Of a stretch of 64,000 nt of DNA, positions 449-31,033 are shown piece after piece. A program made the position numbers and the translations under genes. Numbering within the stretch: position 1 is the stretch's first letter; each line of letters begins with the position of its first letter. A model generated the notes under the pieces. The model was not told the origin of the DNA. It made no database searches and worked only from the letters and a program-made list of their open reading frames with translations. Source of the stretch: Planctomycetaceae bacterium (GTDB lineage: Bacteria > Planctomycetota > Planctomycetia > Pirellulales > Thermoguttaceae); the NCBI GenBank assembly GCA_009778035.1, contig WRKP01000002.1, positions 1 through 64,000 of the forward strand, given 5' to 3'.

Positions 449-600
449 TAGGGCGTGTTTCAAATTGCTCTGGACGCGTTTTCGTCATTCCGGCGAAAGC
501 CGGAATCCAGAGGAACCGGCATCGCACGCAATGTCTGGTTCCCGGCTTGCGCCGGGATGACGGCTTTTTTTGTCCAGAGTAATTTGAAATACGCACACTA
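449..600. repeat. MITE-like palindromic element, complete copy
   Basis: About 152 bp with imperfect terminal inverted repeats: TAGGGCGTGTTTCAAATT at the left and, on the other strand, TAGTGTGCGTATTTCAAATT from the right. An inner CTCTGGAC arm follows on each side. The core holds two hairpins, TTCCGGCGAAAGCCGGAA and CCCGGCTTGCGCCGGG. Both ends fall on TA, as expected if TA is the target. This is the best reference copy in the window. Confidence 0.85.
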
Positions 601-616
601 AAGAAAGGGGTTTCCG

Positions 617-1183
617 ATGATGAAACGGAAATTGACGGCTGGTTTGGGGGTTGGAATGATTGCTCTGTTGCTCGCGGTGATAGTCTACGCGAGCACCGAC
701 TGCGAGACTGCTTGCGATGCTGCCTATTCGGACGCGTCAATGCACTGCGTCGCGTCTTCCGCTAATGCGCTCGGGTTGTGCGACAGTCAGCCGGCGACGG
801 AAGTGGGATATAAAGTTTTTCTCAGCCAGCTGGGTTTGCCGGATGACTTTTATCAATCTCCCCACCACTTAACTAACAGGGCGGAGTGGGATGAGGAGAC
901 ATTGAAAGCGGAGATAGAGAAGGAAAGAGCGGAAGCTGAGCGGCTAAGGGCGGAGATTGAGAGGAGAATAACAGAGGCCGACCAGAAAATGCATGAAAAC
1001 ATTGCCGCTGCAAGGGCTCACGCGAAAGATTTCATTGAACGGCGGGGTCGCGAATACTATCCTTTGCCAGAAGCCTCAAACAACCGTTGGGTTATCGTGA
1101 TGTGTTTTAATGGAGCGGCCATTTTTGCAATGTTAGCTCTCTACTTTTATCATCGTTGGAGAAAAAACAGACTGTTGCCCTGA
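617..1183 (+). CDS. Hypothetical membrane-anchored coiled-coil protein
   Basis: This is a 188-residue protein of unrecognised family. The start is supported by AAAGAAAGGGG about 8 nt upstream of ATG. Residues ~7-26 form a hydrophobic signal or anchor segment, followed by a short Cys-containing stretch (DCETACDAAYSDASMHC). Residues ~95-145 are a highly charged heptad-like coiled coil rich in Glu, Lys, Arg and Ala. Residues ~158-178 form a second membrane helix followed by HRWRKNRLLP, a basic tail typical of the cytoplasmic side. It is probably a double-spanning membrane protein with an external coiled coil. MITE copies lie on both sides. No function can be assigned. Confidence 0.6.
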   Translation: MMKRKLTAGLGVGMIALLLAVIVYASTDCETACDAAYSDASMHCVASSANALGLCDSQPATEVGYKVFLSQLGLPDDFYQSPHHLTNRAEWDEETLKAEIEKERAEAERLRAEIERRITEADQKMHENIAAARAHAKDFIERRGREYYPLPEASNNRWVIVMCFNGAAIFAMLALYFYHRWRKNRLLP

Positions 1184-1196
1184 CATGAAAATGAAA

Positions 1197-1304
1197 AAAA
1201 CCGTCATCCCGGCACAAGCCGGGAACCAGAGGTAGGATGCTGACCGCCGGGCGGCATCGCCGGAATGACGAAAACACGTCCAGCGTAATTTGAAACTCGC
1301 TCTA
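1197..1304. repeat. MITE-like element, partly decayed copy
   Basis: The core CGTCATCCCGGCACAAGCCG and a matching right core CCGGAATGACG are followed by the family right end GTCCAGCGTAATTTGAAACT and GCTCTA. The left terminal repeat is eroded. No gene ends at it. Confidence 0.7.
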
Positions 1305-1475
1305 ATGCTGTTTATCGGGATTCGGCACAACCTCTGCGTCACCGGGCGTTGAACGTGCTACGGTGGATTTCGGCTTCGTGTATTTCGGCATTGCGGATTC
1401 CTTTCAAAAGGAACAGGATAGCATACAATATCTGATCGTGAAAAAAAACAAGGTTTTGAACGGTTTTCTACAAAT
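1305..1475. other. Intergenic stretch without recognisable gene
   Basis: No coding signal, RNA gene or clear promoter is recognised here. Together with the MITE copy at 1197-1304 it separates the 617-1183 gene from the unrecognised ORFs that follow. Confidence 0.5.
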
Positions 1476-1916
1476 ATGTTGAAAAATCATACCATGGCGA
1501 CTTCAATTCGTGGAAAGAACGTTTTAATATCCATCGGGAAGAAAACGCAAGACTGTTCTACCTTACTCGGTACGTATTGTTCTTTATGGCAACGTTGCGA
1601 TGTCGAGGGACATAAAATTGACCAGATGGAACAAATTGCGTTACAAAAAGTTCAAATGGAGGCGGAATCCAAAAAGATGATGCTCGATCTTGCCATGCGG
1701 TTTCCCGTTCGAGGCGGATTGGAAGAGTCTTACAATATGATTAACGATGAACAGATCAAACAGGAGGAAGCGCAACGATTATTCATGCGTGCGAACATCA
1801 ACGTAGCACAAGCGGACATGTGGCGTGCAATCAATGGATTACTCGGACTCACCAATGAGCCGGAAAAAACGCGACTATCTCGGCGCACCGCATTCGCTTT
1901 TTACCGAAATTATTGA
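1476..1916 (+). CDS. Unrecognised ORF, possibly a gene fragment
   Basis: A 146-residue ORF with no recognised family and no clear ribosome binding site. The middle, about residues 50-125, is helical and charged (MEQIALQKVQMEAESKKMML, then a Met/Ala/Gln-rich stretch) and looks protein-like. The last ~15 residues (TRLSRRTAFAFYRNY) look like out-of-frame sequence. The following ORF begins inside its 3' end in another frame. This could be one gene broken by a frameshift, or two overlapping genes. The region is AT-richer than its surroundings, which fits decay or foreign origin. Confidence 0.35.
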   Translation: MLKNHTMATSIRGKNVLISIGKKTQDCSTLLGTYCSLWQRCDVEGHKIDQMEQIALQKVQMEAESKKMMLDLAMRFPVRGGLEESYNMINDEQIKQEEAQRLFMRANINVAQADMWRAINGLLGLTNEPEKTRLSRRTAFAFYRNY

Positions 1917-2139
1917 AACAACAACACCGGACAGCACAGTTGTCGAACGCATCCCGATGTTTTGGGCAGATTCGATTAGTGTAACGCCGTTTGATGATCA
2001 TTATCGTGGTGTCAATGGTAAAGTCTTTCTCGGCGATGATGGCAATCCTCAAATGCTCCATTTCAAGACGGCACGCTTGCACGTCTATTACTCAAATGAC
2101 TCGATTCACTATTCACGGATTAAATGCAGTTGGCGGTAA
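1855..2139 (+). CDS. Unrecognised short ORF, possibly truncated
   Basis: A 94-residue ORF starting at an ATG inside the preceding ORF. Its middle (PMFWADSISVTPFDDHYRGV, then GKVFLGDDGN and a short VYYSNDS strand) has the alternating pattern of a beta-rich secreted domain. It vaguely recalls short planctomycetal proteins with a G-x-V-F/Y-x-GDDG motif, but I cannot name the family. The C-terminus stops abruptly after a strand, so truncation is likely. The next ~300 bases hold only short ORFs in changing frames. Confidence 0.35.
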   Translation: MSRKKRDYLGAPHSLFTEIIETTTPDSTVVERIPMFWADSISVTPFDDHYRGVNGKVFLGDDGNPQMLHFKTARLHVYYSNDSIHYSRIKCSWR

Positions 2140-2443
2140 AAACATTTTCACAGACGTAATTTTGCGTGATGAAAGAAAATGGCCAGTTGCTTCAGATCTC
2201 CATTCACTCACAAAGGCTATTTGAAAATTACTCTTGCCTGATATGCTTGAATCCGCGATATTTTGGTAGTATTTCACACAGGAGTAAAATAATAAGCGAA
2301 ACCAAGAAGTTGGTCTCCGCGAAGTTGTCAACGACATTTTCTAATTTTCAAACAGATCCTTATTTAAGCGATGATTGAGTTAGAGCGTTTCACGTACTGC
2401 TATGGACAAAAAACTGTCCTTCCGGCACAACTCGCAGTTCTAC
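2140..2443. other. Non-coding, probably decayed sequence with a MITE fragment
   Basis: No sustained coding frame is visible. At 2381 the MITE-type end TAGAGCGTTTCACGTACTGC appears, followed by ATGGACAAAAAACTGTCCTT, a degraded left arm without its hairpin core. The rest is AT-rich and unassigned. Confidence 0.45.
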
Positions 2444-2890
2444 TTACCAATTTCCAGGCATATTGCTTTGCCTCCGATAAGAATCGGCAGCGTTTGCCTG
2501 TTGCAAGTTATGGTGCTGCATCGGCATTGTTGCCCCTCCCCGATGCGTCATCGCGGAAGTCATTTGGAATCCCCGTTGCGGATTCGCGTAAGTCGATTGC
2601 TGCATCGCTCTTCCCGAAGATTGAAACTGTCCCGTCATCATCGGACCGGTGCCTCGCATTTGCCCTGCCATCATCGGGCCAGTGCCTCGCATTTGCCCTG
2701 CCATCATCGGGCCGGTGCCTCGCATTTGCCCTGCCATCATCGGGCCAGCACCTCGCATTTGTCCCGCCATCATTAGGCCAGTGCCTCGCATTTGTCCCGC
2801 CATCATCGGGCCGGTGCCACGCACGTTGGCACCACGATGGACTTGAGCGGGCTGATGCACGGGACGATGACTGACGGTGTGGAATTGCAT
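2444..2890 (-). CDS. Met/Gln/Gly-rich tandem-repeat protein
   Basis: This is a 148-residue hypothetical protein, taking the ATG at 2890; an upstream TTG at 2929 would add 13 residues. Five to six copies of an 11-residue unit, GTGPMMAGQMR, fill about residues 25-90. The tail is Gln/Met/Arg-rich (QQSTYANPQRGFQM). Every unit keeps the frame and most differences between units are silent or conservative, which supports real coding on this strand. No domain is recognised and the ribosome binding site is weak. The Met/Gln-rich composition resembles low-complexity secreted or structural proteins, but no role can be assigned. A TTATAGCG motif also seen near the flagellin genes lies just upstream at about 3016. 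Confidence 0.45.
   Translation of the reverse strand: MQFHTVSHRPVHQPAQVHRGANVRGTGPMMAGQMRGTGLMMAGQMRGAGPMMAGQMRGTGPMMAGQMRGTGPMMAGQMRGTGPMMTGQFQSSGRAMQQSTYANPQRGFQMTSAMTHRGGATMPMQHHNLQQANAADSYRRQSNMPGNW
2638..2835. repeat. 33-bp tandem repeat, about six copies
   Basis: Six consecutive units of 33 bp. Each starts TCATCGGGCC and contains CCTCGCATTTG. Units 1-5 are nearly identical and the sixth diverges after 16 bp. Because 33 is divisible by three, copy-number changes keep the reading frame of the minus-strand protein. Confidence 0.9.
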
Positions 2891-3058
2891 GGCCGAAAAA
2901 GTTAGTAGAAACCAAAACCCATCGGCCAATCATATAGTCTCCAAAATGCGCGTCAAGCGAAAGAACCGTAATATCCGGTAAAATTTCCGCCGAGGCAAAG
3001 AATTTGGGAGGGTTATAGCGATTGTAACAGATTTACCGCCCTGGCATCATCATCGCAT

Positions 3059-4312
3059 TCACTCTCCGAAGACGATCTTATTCTTCATCATCCGCTCACG
3101 CGTTTCGATCTTCAATCGTAGGTATTCCATTGGCCGATCGCCCTTAATGCGATTGCAATTGCCGCAAAGCAGTTGATAATTCTCATAATAATCGCCGCCG
3201 CCCTTCGATTTCGGAATAATATGATCTACTTCCAAATTGCGAACCTGAAAATCTTCTCCGCAAGCATTGCACTTGCCTTTCTGCTCCTTATAAAGTTGCT
3301 GTTTTACCGACTCCGTCGGCTGCACTACTTGCACATCGCTTCGCTTCGGAATCTGATCGGTTGCTATAAAATCTTGGAAGAGCCGACCAGCATCGCTCAA
3401 TCGTTGTATTAAAACTCCTACCGCTTGTTTCTCAATGTCAATTCCGATCCATTGTCGTTGCAACTGTTGAGCGGCAACGCACGTTGTTGCACATCCGCAA
3501 AAGGGGTCAAGTACGGTATCCCATTCGTTTGATGATGCAAGAATGATGCGTTTTAGTAATGCCAGCGGTTTCTGGGTTGGGTAGCCAGTGCGCTCTTTTC
3601 CACGTATGACGGGAATGTCCCAAACATCATCGGGATACTTACCGTCTTTCATATATACAATTTCCTGTTTGCCATTTCGTAGTGCCGATATTTTATAGCG
3701 TCGCCCTTTTTCGTCGGTGTGGTTATAACGTTTTTCGGTTAATTCTGAATACGGCAATAAAATGTTGTTCGGAAAAAACACTGGCCGTTTTCCTTTGCAA
3801 TACCAAAAAATAGTATCGTGTTTTTTGGGCAAGCAGTATTTCGGTATCGAATTACCCGTATAACGCCAAATAATTTCATTGACAAAATGCTGTTTTCCAA
3901 AAATGCTATCCAGCAAATGTTTCAAGTAGTGACTCGCCGTCGGATCGCAATGCAAATACAAAGAGCCCGTATCTTTTAACACGCGGTGCATTTCTACAAT
4001 CCGCTGTGCCATATAAGTCAAGTAGGCCATCATCGGCTTGCTATGCACTTCGCCAACGCTGGCAATGTATCTCGCCAACGATGGAAACTGCACTGCAAGC
4101 GAGTCGAGATAGTATTCATCGACGTCATTCCAAGTCCACATATCTTTGAAACTGGCACCGGCGGCTTTGCTTCCGATGGGAGCGGAGAACATTTGGTTTT
4201 TGTTGAATGGCGGATCGAGATAGATCAGGTCAACGATTTCGCTGTTCATTCCTGATAAGACGTATAAATTATCGTTCGTGTACAGTGTGTTTTTGGAGGC
4301 ATTTTTTGCCAT
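3059..4312 (-). CDS. Beta-class DNA (adenine/cytosine amino) methyltransferase fused to an HNH nuclease domain
   Basis: The protein has 417 residues from the ATG at 4312 (MAKNASKNTLYTNDN). An upstream start at 4387 would add 25 residues that look unrelated. The catalytic motif LIYLDPPFNKNQ lies near residue 34. The AdoMet-binding motif VLDPFCGCATTC comes much later, near residue 270. This order defines the beta class of amino-methyltransferases. Between them lies a long target-recognition region. The C-terminus, about residues 340-395, is an HNH module with two CxxC zinc pairs (CNAC, CGNC) and the catalytic VDHIIPKSKGGG. Modification and possible cleavage are thus in one chain, and no separate restriction gene is adjacent. 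The gene is AT-richer than its neighbours, suggesting horizontal transfer. HNH activity is an inference from motifs. Confidence 0.85.
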   Translation of the reverse strand: MAKNASKNTLYTNDNLYVLSGMNSEIVDLIYLDPPFNKNQMFSAPIGSKAAGASFKDMWTWNDVDEYYLDSLAVQFPSLARYIASVGEVHSKPMMAYLTYMAQRIVEMHRVLKDTGSLYLHCDPTASHYLKHLLDSIFGKQHFVNEIIWRYTGNSIPKYCLPKKHDTIFWYCKGKRPVFFPNNILLPYSELTEKRYNHTDEKGRRYKISALRNGKQEIVYMKDGKYPDDVWDIPVIRGKERTGYPTQKPLALLKRIILASSNEWDTVLDPFCGCATTCVAAQQLQRQWIGIDIEKQAVGVLIQRLSDAGRLFQDFIATDQIPKRSDVQVVQPTESVKQQLYKEQKGKCNACGEDFQVRNLEVDHIIPKSKGGGDYYENYQLLCGNCNRIKGDRPMEYLRLKIETRERMMKNKIVFGE

Positions 4313-4453
4313 ATTTTTTACTCTATTCCATGCCGATGAGTCTTTGTAAGATATTTTACATTGATTTTTTGGAAAAACACAGTGCAAGCCGGGGACTGCG
4401 CTGCAATCAGCTCCGTCCCCGGCTCTTTGCGGTCACGTCCCCGGCTCTTTGTT

Positions 4454-7400
4454 TCATCCCGGTTCCGTCCCTTGAATCCTGCCGCGACCATCGGCGTCGA
4501 AATCGAGGCGAATGTCCTTGCTGTCCTCGTCAATCGACAAAACATAATCCATACCGCTCAATCGGTAATGGCCCGGCGGAAGCAAAATGTCGTACGCGCC
4601 GTCCTCTATCCATAGCATCGTTACCATCGGCCTGTCCTCTCTGACAGGCGAGTCTGGCCCTCGCATTGCATTGACCTGGATATTAGACCGCTCCAATTCA
4701 AATGTACCAAACACGCGAACCAACTTGATCGTCCCTAAATCAACGTTTTCGCCCGGTGCGAGGTCCATGTCCCTCTCTACAGGGAAATGCCTCATTGTGC
4801 CATGTATTGTTCGTAGCCTCTCCGAAAGACTATACGGCGGGGCTACCATAATGGGCATTTTGCCGGACAAAACAGGCAACAATACCCTACCATCCGAATC
4901 CGTTTCGGTATATGTAGGACTCCAATGCGAAGCAGGATCACTGTGTGAATAAAACAGCCTCATCAGTTGTCCCGCCATCGGCCTGTTTTCCGCATCGACC
5001 AGCCTTGCCGTTACACTACCCATCGGCTGAAGAGTAAAACGCTGCGTTGTCCCGAACATGTCGGGCGTAATTTTTGCAATCGTTCCATGCTTGCCATGGT
5101 TATCTATGAAATAGAGCGAACCAGACTTTTCCGATGATTCGAAAATGAATTGACCGCGTGTAAACGATTCGCTGTGGCTTCTTGTAGTGTCATCGCGAAA
5201 CTCCGGGACGAACCAAGAAACAATCTGCTCAGATACCGGCGAGCCGTCTGCCAATTCCAATTCGACAAAAATCGGTGTCGAAAATGTCAAATCGAATTGC
5301 CTTGCCGTGTCGGTTTCGTTGATGACAATGGTTCTGTTCACTCGGTAAATCAAGTATTCGCCCGGCAGAAGATAAGCCGTGTATTCGCCATTTTCGTCCG
5401 TCGGTGTCGACGACCAAAAATGCGAGAACGTGGTTGTGGTGCGGCTTGGAACAGTGTCATCCCGCGATTCGAACATGGTATGCTGCACAAAGATCACACT
5501 ACGTTCTACAGCGGGCAGGCCATTTTCGTACACAACCTTGCCGCGTATCGGAATGCCCTCTTCCAGCGTAATGTCCAGCGGTTCCATATCTGCTTGGACA
5601 ACGAACTCCAGCGGTTTCATGGTGAATCTCTCGCCTGCATTCGTGGACATAATGCTCAAGACGCTCTCTGCCAGATTGGGAATGTCTTCAATTTGGAATG
5701 TGCCATCCGCTGCGGTGTGAACGATAGCGCCTCGGGCATCGCCAGGGGAACCAACTCGTGATTCCGTTCTGACATACACTCGGTAGCCAGCAGCGGGCGA
5801 ACCATCGGGAAGCCGAATGCGGCCGCTGATGTTTATGCTGTCTGTCACGTCGAAAGACTCAGCAACGTTCGTTAGGGGCGTCCCTGGCTCACGCGGCGGG
5901 CCCTGGGCGAGCGGCGGGCTCGGCAGCACCACGGTCAGTTCACGCTCTTCGCCCTCCGACATTTTCGGAACCTCCTGCGAAACAATTTCGTAACCCCTGC
6001 CGACAATGTGAAGTCGCATCGCCTCATCCGGCAAAATGCCGTCCGCATTGATCTTCGTCTCGTCGTTGCCAAAGTTTTTATACTTGAACGAAACGTTCAA
6101 AATGCCGAGAAGAGGCACAAGCGATGTCGCATAATCCCAGTCGATTACGTGAAAATGCTCCGAGGTGATTTCTACACGAATTTTGTCCCCCTCGACCTTG
6201 ATTGTGGCCGGCGTGCCATTACTGATGTACTCAAGCCAAGCATAATACTCCTTGACCGGCTGCCCGAGTTCATCTACGACATTCAAAATGATATTCGGCG
6301 ACTTGAAAGCCGCAACTTCGATCCTCATGGCCTGCTCAATCGTACCCAGCGGCAATTCGCTGCGATTGTTTGCATTTCTCCATTCACTTTCGCCTTCGAT
6401 TCGCATACGATACGTGGTATTGGTATCAAAAGGCACTCGAAAAGCCGCATTTTCCAGTCCCACTGGAACCTGAAAGGAGAACAATCCATCCCCTTGATAG
6501 GCACTCGGCGAGTCCGAACTCATACGCGACGCAAAGAAATTGCCATCCTCCTGACGTCCCGAAATATTTGCATTGAGTTCGCGGTAGGAATCGGCCGTCT
6601 TGTCGGAAAATTGCACATCAATGTTGACAGTCTGTTGCGCCTGGAGTGTTACTTCCAATGCTGTTTCCGAAAGCGTTTCATTTATGGCATAAAAGACGCC
6701 ATCGACCGTTTTGGCATCCCCGTCTCTATCTGCCCGCCAAGTAACCGAGTTGGCAATCGACCAAGGGGGATTACGTCTGGCCATCGAGCTTGGCCGAACG
6801 CGAATATTGTAATCACCTTCCGTGACAGGATGAAGACGCGCTTTTCCCTCCTGGTCGGTAAGCGCAGAACGGGTATAGGGAGACAAAAAACCCACCGCAA
6901 AATCCTCGCCCTGCCGGGTAAGATTAACCCAAACATCATGTACCGGTTTCCCGTCTTTATCCAGTACGGTTACAATCGGCTCGAAGCCCTTTTTAAGCAC
7001 GATGTTCCCGTGGTCGCCCCGTGCTTGGTTTTGGGCTGGCGAAACGAATTGCGGGGCAAGGGTTTCGGGAAGAGCCCAAAAAGCAATCTTTTCATCCTTG
7101 GCAACATCAATACGGAATCGCCCGTCCGCATCGCTTGTCCGATCCATCGTTTCGACCTCTATGTAGTCGTTTCTAAACGGTCGGGCTTTTTGTCGCAGTA
7201 CGGAAATCAAGACATCTGCAAGCGGTTGCCCTTGTTCATCGACAAGCCGGCCTGTGATTGTTTCGGCCCGTTGAAGCGGGAAAACGTCGCAGACCAGCCT
7301 TCCTTCATTGAGGAAGCGTTCCGCCCATTGGGCTTGGCGGCCATTGCTCTCCGAAACATAACCTTCCTTTTCGACGAGAATCCACGTTCCTGCTTCCATA

Positions 7401-30062: not shown

Positions 30063-30090
30063 TTGCGAAAAAAGGAGATTATTATACAAT
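30063..30090 (+). promoter_or_regulatory. Probable promoter of tRNA-Lys
   Basis: TTGCGA at 30063-30068 and TACAAT at 30085-30090 are spaced by 16 bp. They lie about 80 bp before the mature tRNA end. Confidence 0.55.
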
Positions 30091-30170: not shown

Positions 30171-30243
<73 letters not shown>

Positions 30244-30255
30244 ATGTGTGGCGGT

Positions 30256-30335
30256 ACAGTAACCGTTCATACACGGTATATGGGGTTAATGTCGCTACTT
30301 GTCGGCGGCATTAGCAACGTGAACCCGTGTACTGT
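30256..30335 (+). ncRNA. Candidate structured RNA downstream of tRNA-Lys
   Basis: An 80-nt segment folds into one long, interrupted hairpin by eye. ACAGT (30256) pairs with ACTGT (30331), ACAC (30271) with GTGT (30327), GGGTT (30283) with AACCC (30322), and AATGTCGCT (30288) with GGCGGCATT (30304), with two G-U pairs, around a 7-nt loop. It begins 13 nt after the tRNA and runs into a terminator. It could be a small RNA cut from the tRNA transcript or a leader of the gene at 30405. It matches no riboswitch class that I recognise. Confidence 0.5.
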
Positions 30336-30338
30336 TTG

Positions 30339-30376
30339 CCCCGGAGGCGTTTCTGTACGCCCTGGGGATTTTTCTT
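30339..30376 (+). terminator. Rho-independent terminator or attenuator
   Basis: CCCC..GGCGT pairs with ACGCC..GGGG around a 6-nt loop, followed by ATTTTTCTTTTT. It would end the tRNA-Lys/structured-RNA transcript, or attenuate the gene at 30405, whose Shine-Dalgarno lies 15 nt further on. Confidence 0.75.
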
Positions 30377-30404
30377 TTTCCCACTCCGGGAAAGGAGGTG
30401 CGTT

Positions 30405-30714
30405 ATGAGTAGCACCGCCGATCATCGGAGGAATTCCGCTCCGAATTACAGCAGTTACTATGAGCAAAAGGTTGCGGAGCGTGATCAACAAAAAAAAAGA
30501 CTTTCTCCATTTGCAACGCAGGGTAATGGTCGTCTTTTTCTGCGTGATTGTGCAATCCATCGTTCTGCTTGCTCATATTGGGGTTACCCAAATGCCTTCA
30601 CCACCAGAATCAGAGTCAGTACCAGAATCACCAATGTATGTCATCCAACCAGTGCCGGTTGTCTCCTTCATTATTTTCTTTTGGAAGTCCTCCATTCGTT
30701 GTTCACGGAGATAG
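30405..30714 (+). pseudogene. Small membrane protein gene with a frameshift at an A9 tract
   Basis: A perfect AAAGGAGG lies 7 nt before the ATG at 30405. The first 31 codons read MSSTADHRRNSAPNYSSYYE and on to QQKK. At the nine-A run (30490-30498) the frame changes. In the +1 frame the protein would continue KDFLHLQRR and a strong membrane helix (VMVVFFCVIVQSIVLLAHIG), then a Pro/Glu/Ser segment, to a TAG at 30714. With eight As the product would be one 103-residue single-pass protein. The gene is either broken, phase-variable, or decoded by slippage. No family is recognised. Its 3' part overlaps the opposite-strand gene at 30573. Confidence 0.5.
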
Positions 30715-30914
30715 TTTCGAATCCACTCTAAGCCGTGAGCGGATAGGCGGTATTGTAGAGAGAGGTTCTTGCTACAAATTATCAACTGGAGATGCATCAG
30801 TTCCCATATCGTGTTGGTGGAGATTCCAGCGGCTACGAGGTCAACTTCATGTACCCAATTGTCCGGTTTTGTCGGAAAGACTGACAAGATTTCAAGCATT
30901 GTTTGATCGTCCAT
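30573..30914 (-). CDS. Hypothetical protein, possibly winged-helix-like
   Basis: The protein has 113 residues, with AGGGAGAGGG about 5 nt before the ATG. The sequence WVHEVDLVAAGISTNTIWEL then LQYRLSAHGLEWIRNYLREQ looks like a small helix-turn-helix or winged-helix domain (PadR/ArsR-like length), but no family motif is certain. The C-terminal ~30 residues are Gly/Ser/Asp-rich and overlap, on the opposite strand, the 3' part of the frameshifted small membrane gene, so one of the two 3' ends may be untranslated. The 94-bp MITE-like element at 30940 lies just upstream and may carry or disturb its promoter. Confidence 0.55.
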   Translation of the reverse strand: MDDQTMLEILSVFPTKPDNWVHEVDLVAAGISTNTIWELMHLQLIICSKNLSLQYRLSAHGLEWIRNYLREQRMEDFQKKIMKETTGTGWMTYIGDSGTDSDSGGEGIWVTPI

Positions 30915-30939
30915 TTTTTCCCTCTCCCTTTTTGGGCAT

Positions 30940-31033
30940 TAGGGCGTGTTGACACTAATTTACTAGAAACCGGCAAACCCCGAGTCATACGCATCGCCTT
31001 GCGATGCGCATGACCCAAAATGGACTCGCTCTA
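30940..31033. repeat. Short palindromic element with MITE ends and a different core
   Basis: This 94-bp element starts TAGGGCGTGTTGACACT and ends ATGGACTCGCTCTA, the same terminal signature as the main family. Its core is a different palindrome, CATACGCATCGC-CTT-GCGATGCGCATG. It provides the TAG stop of the gene at 31031-32269. It indicates that the ends, not the core, define mobility. Confidence 0.75.

Follow-up and report, generated by a model that had tools for sequence, protein, structure and literature searches.

The window analysed in this study is a stretch of 64,000 nucleotides from a Planctomycetaceae bacterium (contig WRKP01000002.1), in which a tRNA-Lys gene is followed on the same strand by a series of predicted RNA structures and a short reading frame:

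30171..30243, + strand: tRNA-Lys, anticodon TTT (ARAGORN; Rfam RF00005, 77.4 bits)
30246..30272, + strand: P1, a small hairpin in the spacer between tRNA and arm (RNA fold; found in the C65 copy too)
30273..30335, + strand: P2, the long bulged arm of the RNA family (fold, alignments, covariance model)
30276..30375, + strand: region matched by the family covariance model, 63.1 bits with model R1 and 57.8 bits with a second model, the window sequence itself being among the inputs of both in a family that covaries strongly
30339..30379, + strand: intrinsic terminator (hairpin 30339-30367, T-rich tail 30369-30379)
30371..30398, + strand: Shine-Dalgarno-pairing hairpin (fold), containing AAAGGAGG at 30391-30398
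30405..30731, + strand: stub reading frame with ATG at 30405, starting MSSTA

A reading of the sequence alone had proposed a structured RNA after tRNA-Lys, and the structured feature is real and not due to chance: the 161 nt from 30244 to 30404 fold at -73.4 kcal/mol as compared with -51.1 +/- 4.2 for shuffled sequences (z -5.32; 0 of 200 as good), and the covariance model matches the same region. The multi-helix fold of that reading holds, but its start 13 nt after the tRNA does not, the first helix beginning 2 nt and the long arm 29 nt after the tRNA. P2 consists of an outer stem, an inner stem and an 8-nt unpaired stretch on the 3' side, and P1 of the C65 copy differs from that of the window in one pair, changed from U-A to C-G. 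The hairpin with a T-rich tail had rightly been taken for a terminator; it covaries in the family, its loop in the window (TTTCTGT) is typical of the family, and a simple terminator scan found none at this site. A Shine-Dalgarno sequence followed by an ATG was likewise read correctly, but the hairpin covering the former had been missed; its pairing in the window is 0.86 versus 0.79 with the upstream sequence shuffled. The promoter placed upstream of the tRNA finds no support beyond chance level, the sigma-70-like match at 30063-30090 (9 of 12 positions) being one site where 0.8 would be expected.

Two more copies of the leader were identified in the same genome, C65 behind tRNA-Met and C20 behind tRNA-Arg. 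The string from the Shine-Dalgarno sequence to the gene start is identical in all three copies, and at C65 and C20 a winged-helix gene starts with it and continues to the contig end. Homology of the window frame to these two genes reaches only up to 30423, thus the window gene is a stub, and no winged helix was found in the frame 30405..30731. The small gene of the earlier reading therefore exists as a frame, but as the stub of a winged-helix gene, and the window copy, judged by its sequence, is a remnant comprising leader and gene stub only. The C20 leader is divergent (16 bits, E 0.23 with the second model) and nonetheless begins at the tRNA end. Farther downstream in the window, a stretch of 22-23 nt at 30939-30961 recurs exactly at three other places in the genome (twice in C63, once in C7) and is perhaps an insertion-sequence end.

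In related genomes the sequence behind tRNA-Lys keeps the same order of parts (tRNA, arm, terminator, Shine-Dalgarno hairpin, gene) with other bases. What the sequence-only reading treated as a single locus is one copy of a multi-copy family occurring behind many tRNA species and apparently belonging to mobile elements, all of which it had missed. Covariance model R1 and alignment A3 were made from 17 copies, and the R1 search returned 77 matches at E <=0.1 in 18 of the 21 genomes of the genus. At the family level, 19 of 119 genomes were positive with R1 at E <=0.01, 17 of them members of the genus and the others G139 (4 matches) and G108 (1 weak match), and a search of the order with model R2, built from all 77 R1 matches, was positive at E <=0.001 in 17 of 396 genomes, namely 16 of the genus and G139. 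As the wider searches were stricter in their filters and the models rest on copies from the genus, distant relatives may be missed. A DNA search of the 119 family genomes with the C65 leader matched its own genome only, so DNA similarity is too weak to serve as a probe, and the leader string had no exact match in the viral contig or genome contig collections. Mean arm similarity is 0.506 between copies of one genome and 0.477 between copies behind the same tRNA species, barely above the 0.451 of the remaining comparisons, and thus no line of descent can be read from the arms.

The family is absent from Rfam release 15, in agreement with the earlier statement that no known RNA class was apparent: the window gave only the tRNA, and a relaxed-threshold search of 14 loci left the arm without a match, T-box and riboswitches included. 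A T-box or other known RNA was rejected on these grounds. Literature searches on the topic listed no tRNA-linked RNA family of this kind.

Alignment A3, made by MAFFT without structure (A4, A6 and A7 were fitted to the structure, which favours it), had 89.1% of cells paired as compared with 67.2% in shuffles and at most 45.4% in slid controls. The matches were split by eye into two classes, a few weak or odd ones being placed in neither alignment. Class A comprises 29 rows, of which G139 supplies one. Its outer stems are sequences like TGTACAGG or TATATGG, and it usually has a Shine-Dalgarno sequence and gene; 93.7% of its cells are paired versus 68.1% when shuffled, with double changes in 27 of 29 pairs. 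Class B (38 rows) has the outer stem TGTGAAGG and is mostly without the gene; 84.1% of its cells are paired versus 67.2% in shuffles. In class B the outer stem is nearly invariant and several inner pairs are frequently open (one of them in 25 of 37), so it is the apical and terminator helices that carry the support for this class. The compensatory changes sought in relatives are strong, and the sequence-only reading is therefore not refuted on that point.

Within the family, the apical hairpin of the arm varies freely, and the terminator helices are conserved, with covariation and a T-tract. The terminator loop TTTCTAT is conserved (90, 61, 97, 90, 93, 64 and 64% by column) and the stems vary. 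In a simple scan, TTCTA occurred in 20 of 42 family terminators versus 4 of 56 others, two of these four being family copies left unflagged. A pseudoknot between apical loop and bulge was inconsistent among several copies inspected by eye and was dropped. In many gene-less copies the motif TATTTTAACA was seen soon after the terminator (class B, for example L142, L143, L145, L151 and L158).

The association with tRNA genes is close. Of the 77 matches, 55 start no more than 2 nt from the 3' end of an intact tRNA and 59 no more than 40 nt from it; in the four further ones, the window copy among them, an extra hairpin or spacer sets the match 21-32 nt away from the tRNA. Two matches are extra arms of a tandem leader in G012 (L091), and 12 follow a tRNA 3' part as judged by eye, a set in which the tRNA of L136 is cut by the contig end and L138 and L140 show only a Ser-like T-arm end. 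Four matches, all of 33.2 bits or less, have no tRNA (L177, L180, L181, L182). In G015, 10 of the 41 complete tRNAs carry a match and the other tRNAs inspected are without the arm, on which ground a generic tRNA trailer was rejected. At L220 and L221 (G013, G016), the arm follows a Ser-like T-arm end with a promoter-like site before it and no tRNA or tmRNA called; this end is perhaps a degenerate or unusual tRNA-like gene.

A winged-helix gene follows 25 of the 77 matches, which amount to 23 leaders because three arms share one leader. For the other 52, the 500 nt inspected (less where the contig ends) contain no winged-helix gene, so the arm exists also without the gene. Pfam winged-helix matches to the product are weak, and matches among solved structures are mostly generic winged helices. 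Direct repeats were identified in all seven winged-helix gene regions inspected, at a spacing of 21 nt in four (13 copies in L091, 8 in L088, 6 in L035 and 3 in L092). In one protein only, that of L226 (G009), DnaA_N was matched near the C-terminus (E 9e-8), and a PHROG replication-initiation family matched the same region (E 0.0024). Another C-terminal domain (alignment A5, three sequences) gave five matches in 4 of the 21 genomes, all five on arm-bearing contigs, with no family match and nothing credible among solved structures. No match was found for the winged-helix protein in the genome contig collection, for the 544-aa protein, the terminase and the C-terminal alignment in the viral contig collection, for the L091 protein in plasmids or for the L094 protein in phages. 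Several winged-helix genes are frameshifted or cut, as expected of decaying elements.

Judged by these sequence features, the most likely product of the gene is a replication initiator that binds iterons and belongs to tRNA-integrated elements. Initiators of the lambda O type and of iteron plasmids have a winged-helix N-terminus and in-gene repeats at helical spacing; the genes described here are alike in both respects but have only weak family matches, and we know of no lambda O-type or plasmid iteron initiator controlled by a tRNA-linked leader. Type III toxin-antitoxin systems consist of a repeat RNA, a terminator and then a ToxN-like toxin gene; this identity was rejected, as the product is a winged-helix protein without toxin family match and most leaders have one arm. 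On the minus strand of L007 (G016), about 200-560 nt after a tRNA-Lys without scored arm, lies a long array of TTGGAGAACTCCAA-type short repeats, which looks like the iteron array of a decayed initiator gene.

The surroundings of the leaders point to mobile elements. At L219 and L222, tRNA 3' parts are preceded by phage integrase genes, and L091 runs on into genes with PHROG matches. At L094, a tRNA-Lys(CTT) 3' part lies between the leader and terminase and portal genes; its status as a proven phage attP was downgraded in view of stacked insertions at L219 and L225, and also because this tRNA part differs from the intact tRNA-Lys(CTT) of G015. Tandem units of tRNA 3' part, arm and terminator (L101:1040-1304, L145:901-1153, L149:428-832), some of them combining different tRNAs (Lys with Phe, Leu with Asp) over a span of a few hundred bases, are, as their sequence indicates, stacked insertion scars. 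As insertions stack at these tRNAs, an arm can be the leftover of an older element or a resident trailer. At L225, a 4.1-kb insert with an integrase gene separates tRNA-Met from its arm (474-4756) and has on either side a direct repeat of 23 bp, which matches the tRNA 3' end and reaches just two bases past the tRNA; this insert has no arm at its tRNA end, the arm lying beyond it, which counts against the explanation favoured below. The contigs end early, and none of them was found to span a complete element together with a leader and both ends. Behind the cut leader and gene of L219 are two further genes (4834-6565), the first without PHROG match, which we take to resemble Csx3 and Cas10 of a type III CRISPR system.

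With a promoter-like site defined as at least 10 of 12 consensus positions, sites were found upstream of 16 of 54 intact tRNAs as compared with 1.55 expected, far enough above expectation to indicate that the consensus works in the genus. Inside leaders there were none on the sense strand (0/26), and thus transcription of the leader appears to have to come from the side of the tRNA. On the opposite strand a site was found in 1 of 26 leaders (0.28 expected), and control by antisense RNA was rejected for this reason. Regions upstream of tRNA 3' parts, corresponding to the 3' end of an element, had a site in 1 of 11 (0.57 expected), so that a 3'-end promoter of the ICEKp1 type finds no clear support. 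Mean Shine-Dalgarno pairing was 0.89 versus 0.76 with shuffled upstream sequence and higher in 27 of 31 rows, a set that includes a few without a real gene; as start codon, the search pattern often picked a TTG lying just ahead of the probable GTG.

We propose that this RNA forms the 5' leader for the first gene carried by mobile elements that have integrated behind tRNA genes. After integration, the host tRNA promoter would be read through from the tRNA into the element, and the leader would intercept this transcript, its arm, terminator and Shine-Dalgarno hairpin holding initiator expression low so that the origin of the integrated copy is not fired; the leader would also supply the tRNA with a 3' boundary and a terminator, and the initiator would be released once the leader refolds or is read through. 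That the leader attenuates transcripts which start at the host tRNA promoter and would otherwise run into the initiator gene of the element has, in our estimate, a probability of about 0.55, and the leader probably keeps the replication gene quiet when the tRNA is transcribed. The earlier suggestion of a terminator-controlled leader is well supported by the conserved order, the compensatory changes and the lack of promoter-like sites in leaders. Against the proposal, a terminator alone would attenuate, and attenuation does not account for the conserved arm.

The arm and terminator might instead serve the tRNA and not the gene, which we regard as unlikely: an insertion would displace the trailer and terminator of the tRNA, and the element would bring a folded trailer aiding 3' maturation together with a terminator, both kept by host genomes after the element has decayed. 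The good pairing of gene-less arm-terminator copies (class B) and the start of the arm at the tRNA end, whichever the tRNA, fit such a cassette; however, the restriction of the arm to a minority of the G015 tRNAs argues that tRNAs do not need it, and the Shine-Dalgarno hairpin of gene-bearing copies and the conserved terminator loop are left unaccounted for.

The other suggestion of the sequence-only reading, a small RNA matured from the tRNA transcript, is possible, and the interpretation given there is supported in part. It also seems doubtful, and more so, that the arm and terminator are released from the tRNA transcript as an RNA with targets in other leaders or among host RNAs, in the manner of the P4 CI immunity RNA or the 3'ETS-leuZ sponge. 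Its start would coincide with the expected tRNA 3' processing cut, the terminator loop is conserved as the stems vary, and gene-less copies persist, whereas the freely varying apical hairpin speaks against it. A specific form of this idea, to which we give slightly less credence, is that the RNA freed by tRNA 3' processing is stable and represses the initiator leaders of incoming related elements in trans through terminator loop and arm, gene-less copies being domesticated immunity RNAs; if true, it would amount to an RNA-based superinfection defence built from tRNA trailers. Finally, it is highly improbable that the arm acts as DNA, a folded single-stranded site that the integrase would recognise for recombination or attachment: arms do turn up repeatedly after tRNA 3' parts, also in tandem (L101, L145, L149), with integrase genes nearby, but the excess of G.U over A.C (242 vs 56 on A4, although a single DNA strand would also tolerate G.T) and the terminator that always follows the arm in the model indicate the transcribed strand, and the direct repeat of L225 barely extends beyond the tRNA end.

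If attenuation of tRNA read-through is the correct reading, the family would tie the replication of mobile elements to host tRNA transcription. The family model also offers a search handle, as it finds element remnants behind tRNA genes that are missed when phage, plasmid and viral collections are searched by DNA or protein similarity.

Parts of the proposed arrangement are known from other systems. In phage P4, the CI RNA is a structured leader RNA that, with premature termination, controls the replication genes of a tRNA-integrating element; to our knowledge it does not adjoin a tRNA, and its immunity acts in trans, whereas for the leader family trans action is a candidate only. 3'ETS-leuZ, a host tRNA trailer acting as a sponge that binds small RNAs, likewise derives from the 3' end of a tRNA transcript, but in the sections of its description used here it has no link to a mobile element or downstream gene (PMC7154689). 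Actinophages that integrate into tRNA genes use a tyrosine integrase and the tRNA 3' half as common core, and the portion of that account drawn on here describes no conserved RNA leader (PMC10865867). Prophage KplE1 in argW also lies behind a tRNA, and transcriptional coupling to the tRNA promoter had been suggested for it; however, intS has its own promoter overlapping attL, and a conserved RNA leader is not described in the excerpted report (PMC2951348).

The closest parallel among these is ICEKp1, which like ICEclc and ICEEc1 lies behind a tRNA. According to the parts of the study available to us, the tRNA-Asn promoter drives int in ICEKp1, stem-loops in the int 5'-UTR form an attenuating terminator, the tRNA's own terminator is displaced, and a promoter at the 3' end takes over after excision (PMC13023037). 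In both cases the first element gene putatively lies directly behind the tRNA on the same strand, with a stem-loop terminator in the 5'-UTR, and the leader described here has no promoter-like site of its own. Unlike ICEKp1 as described in those parts, a 3'-end promoter finds no clear support here, the gene is an apparent replication initiator instead of an integrase, and the leaders make up an RNA family with covariation, occur behind many tRNA species and have a Shine-Dalgarno hairpin in addition. If our reading is true, the hijack of tRNA promoters known for ICE integrases would extend to a replication initiator.
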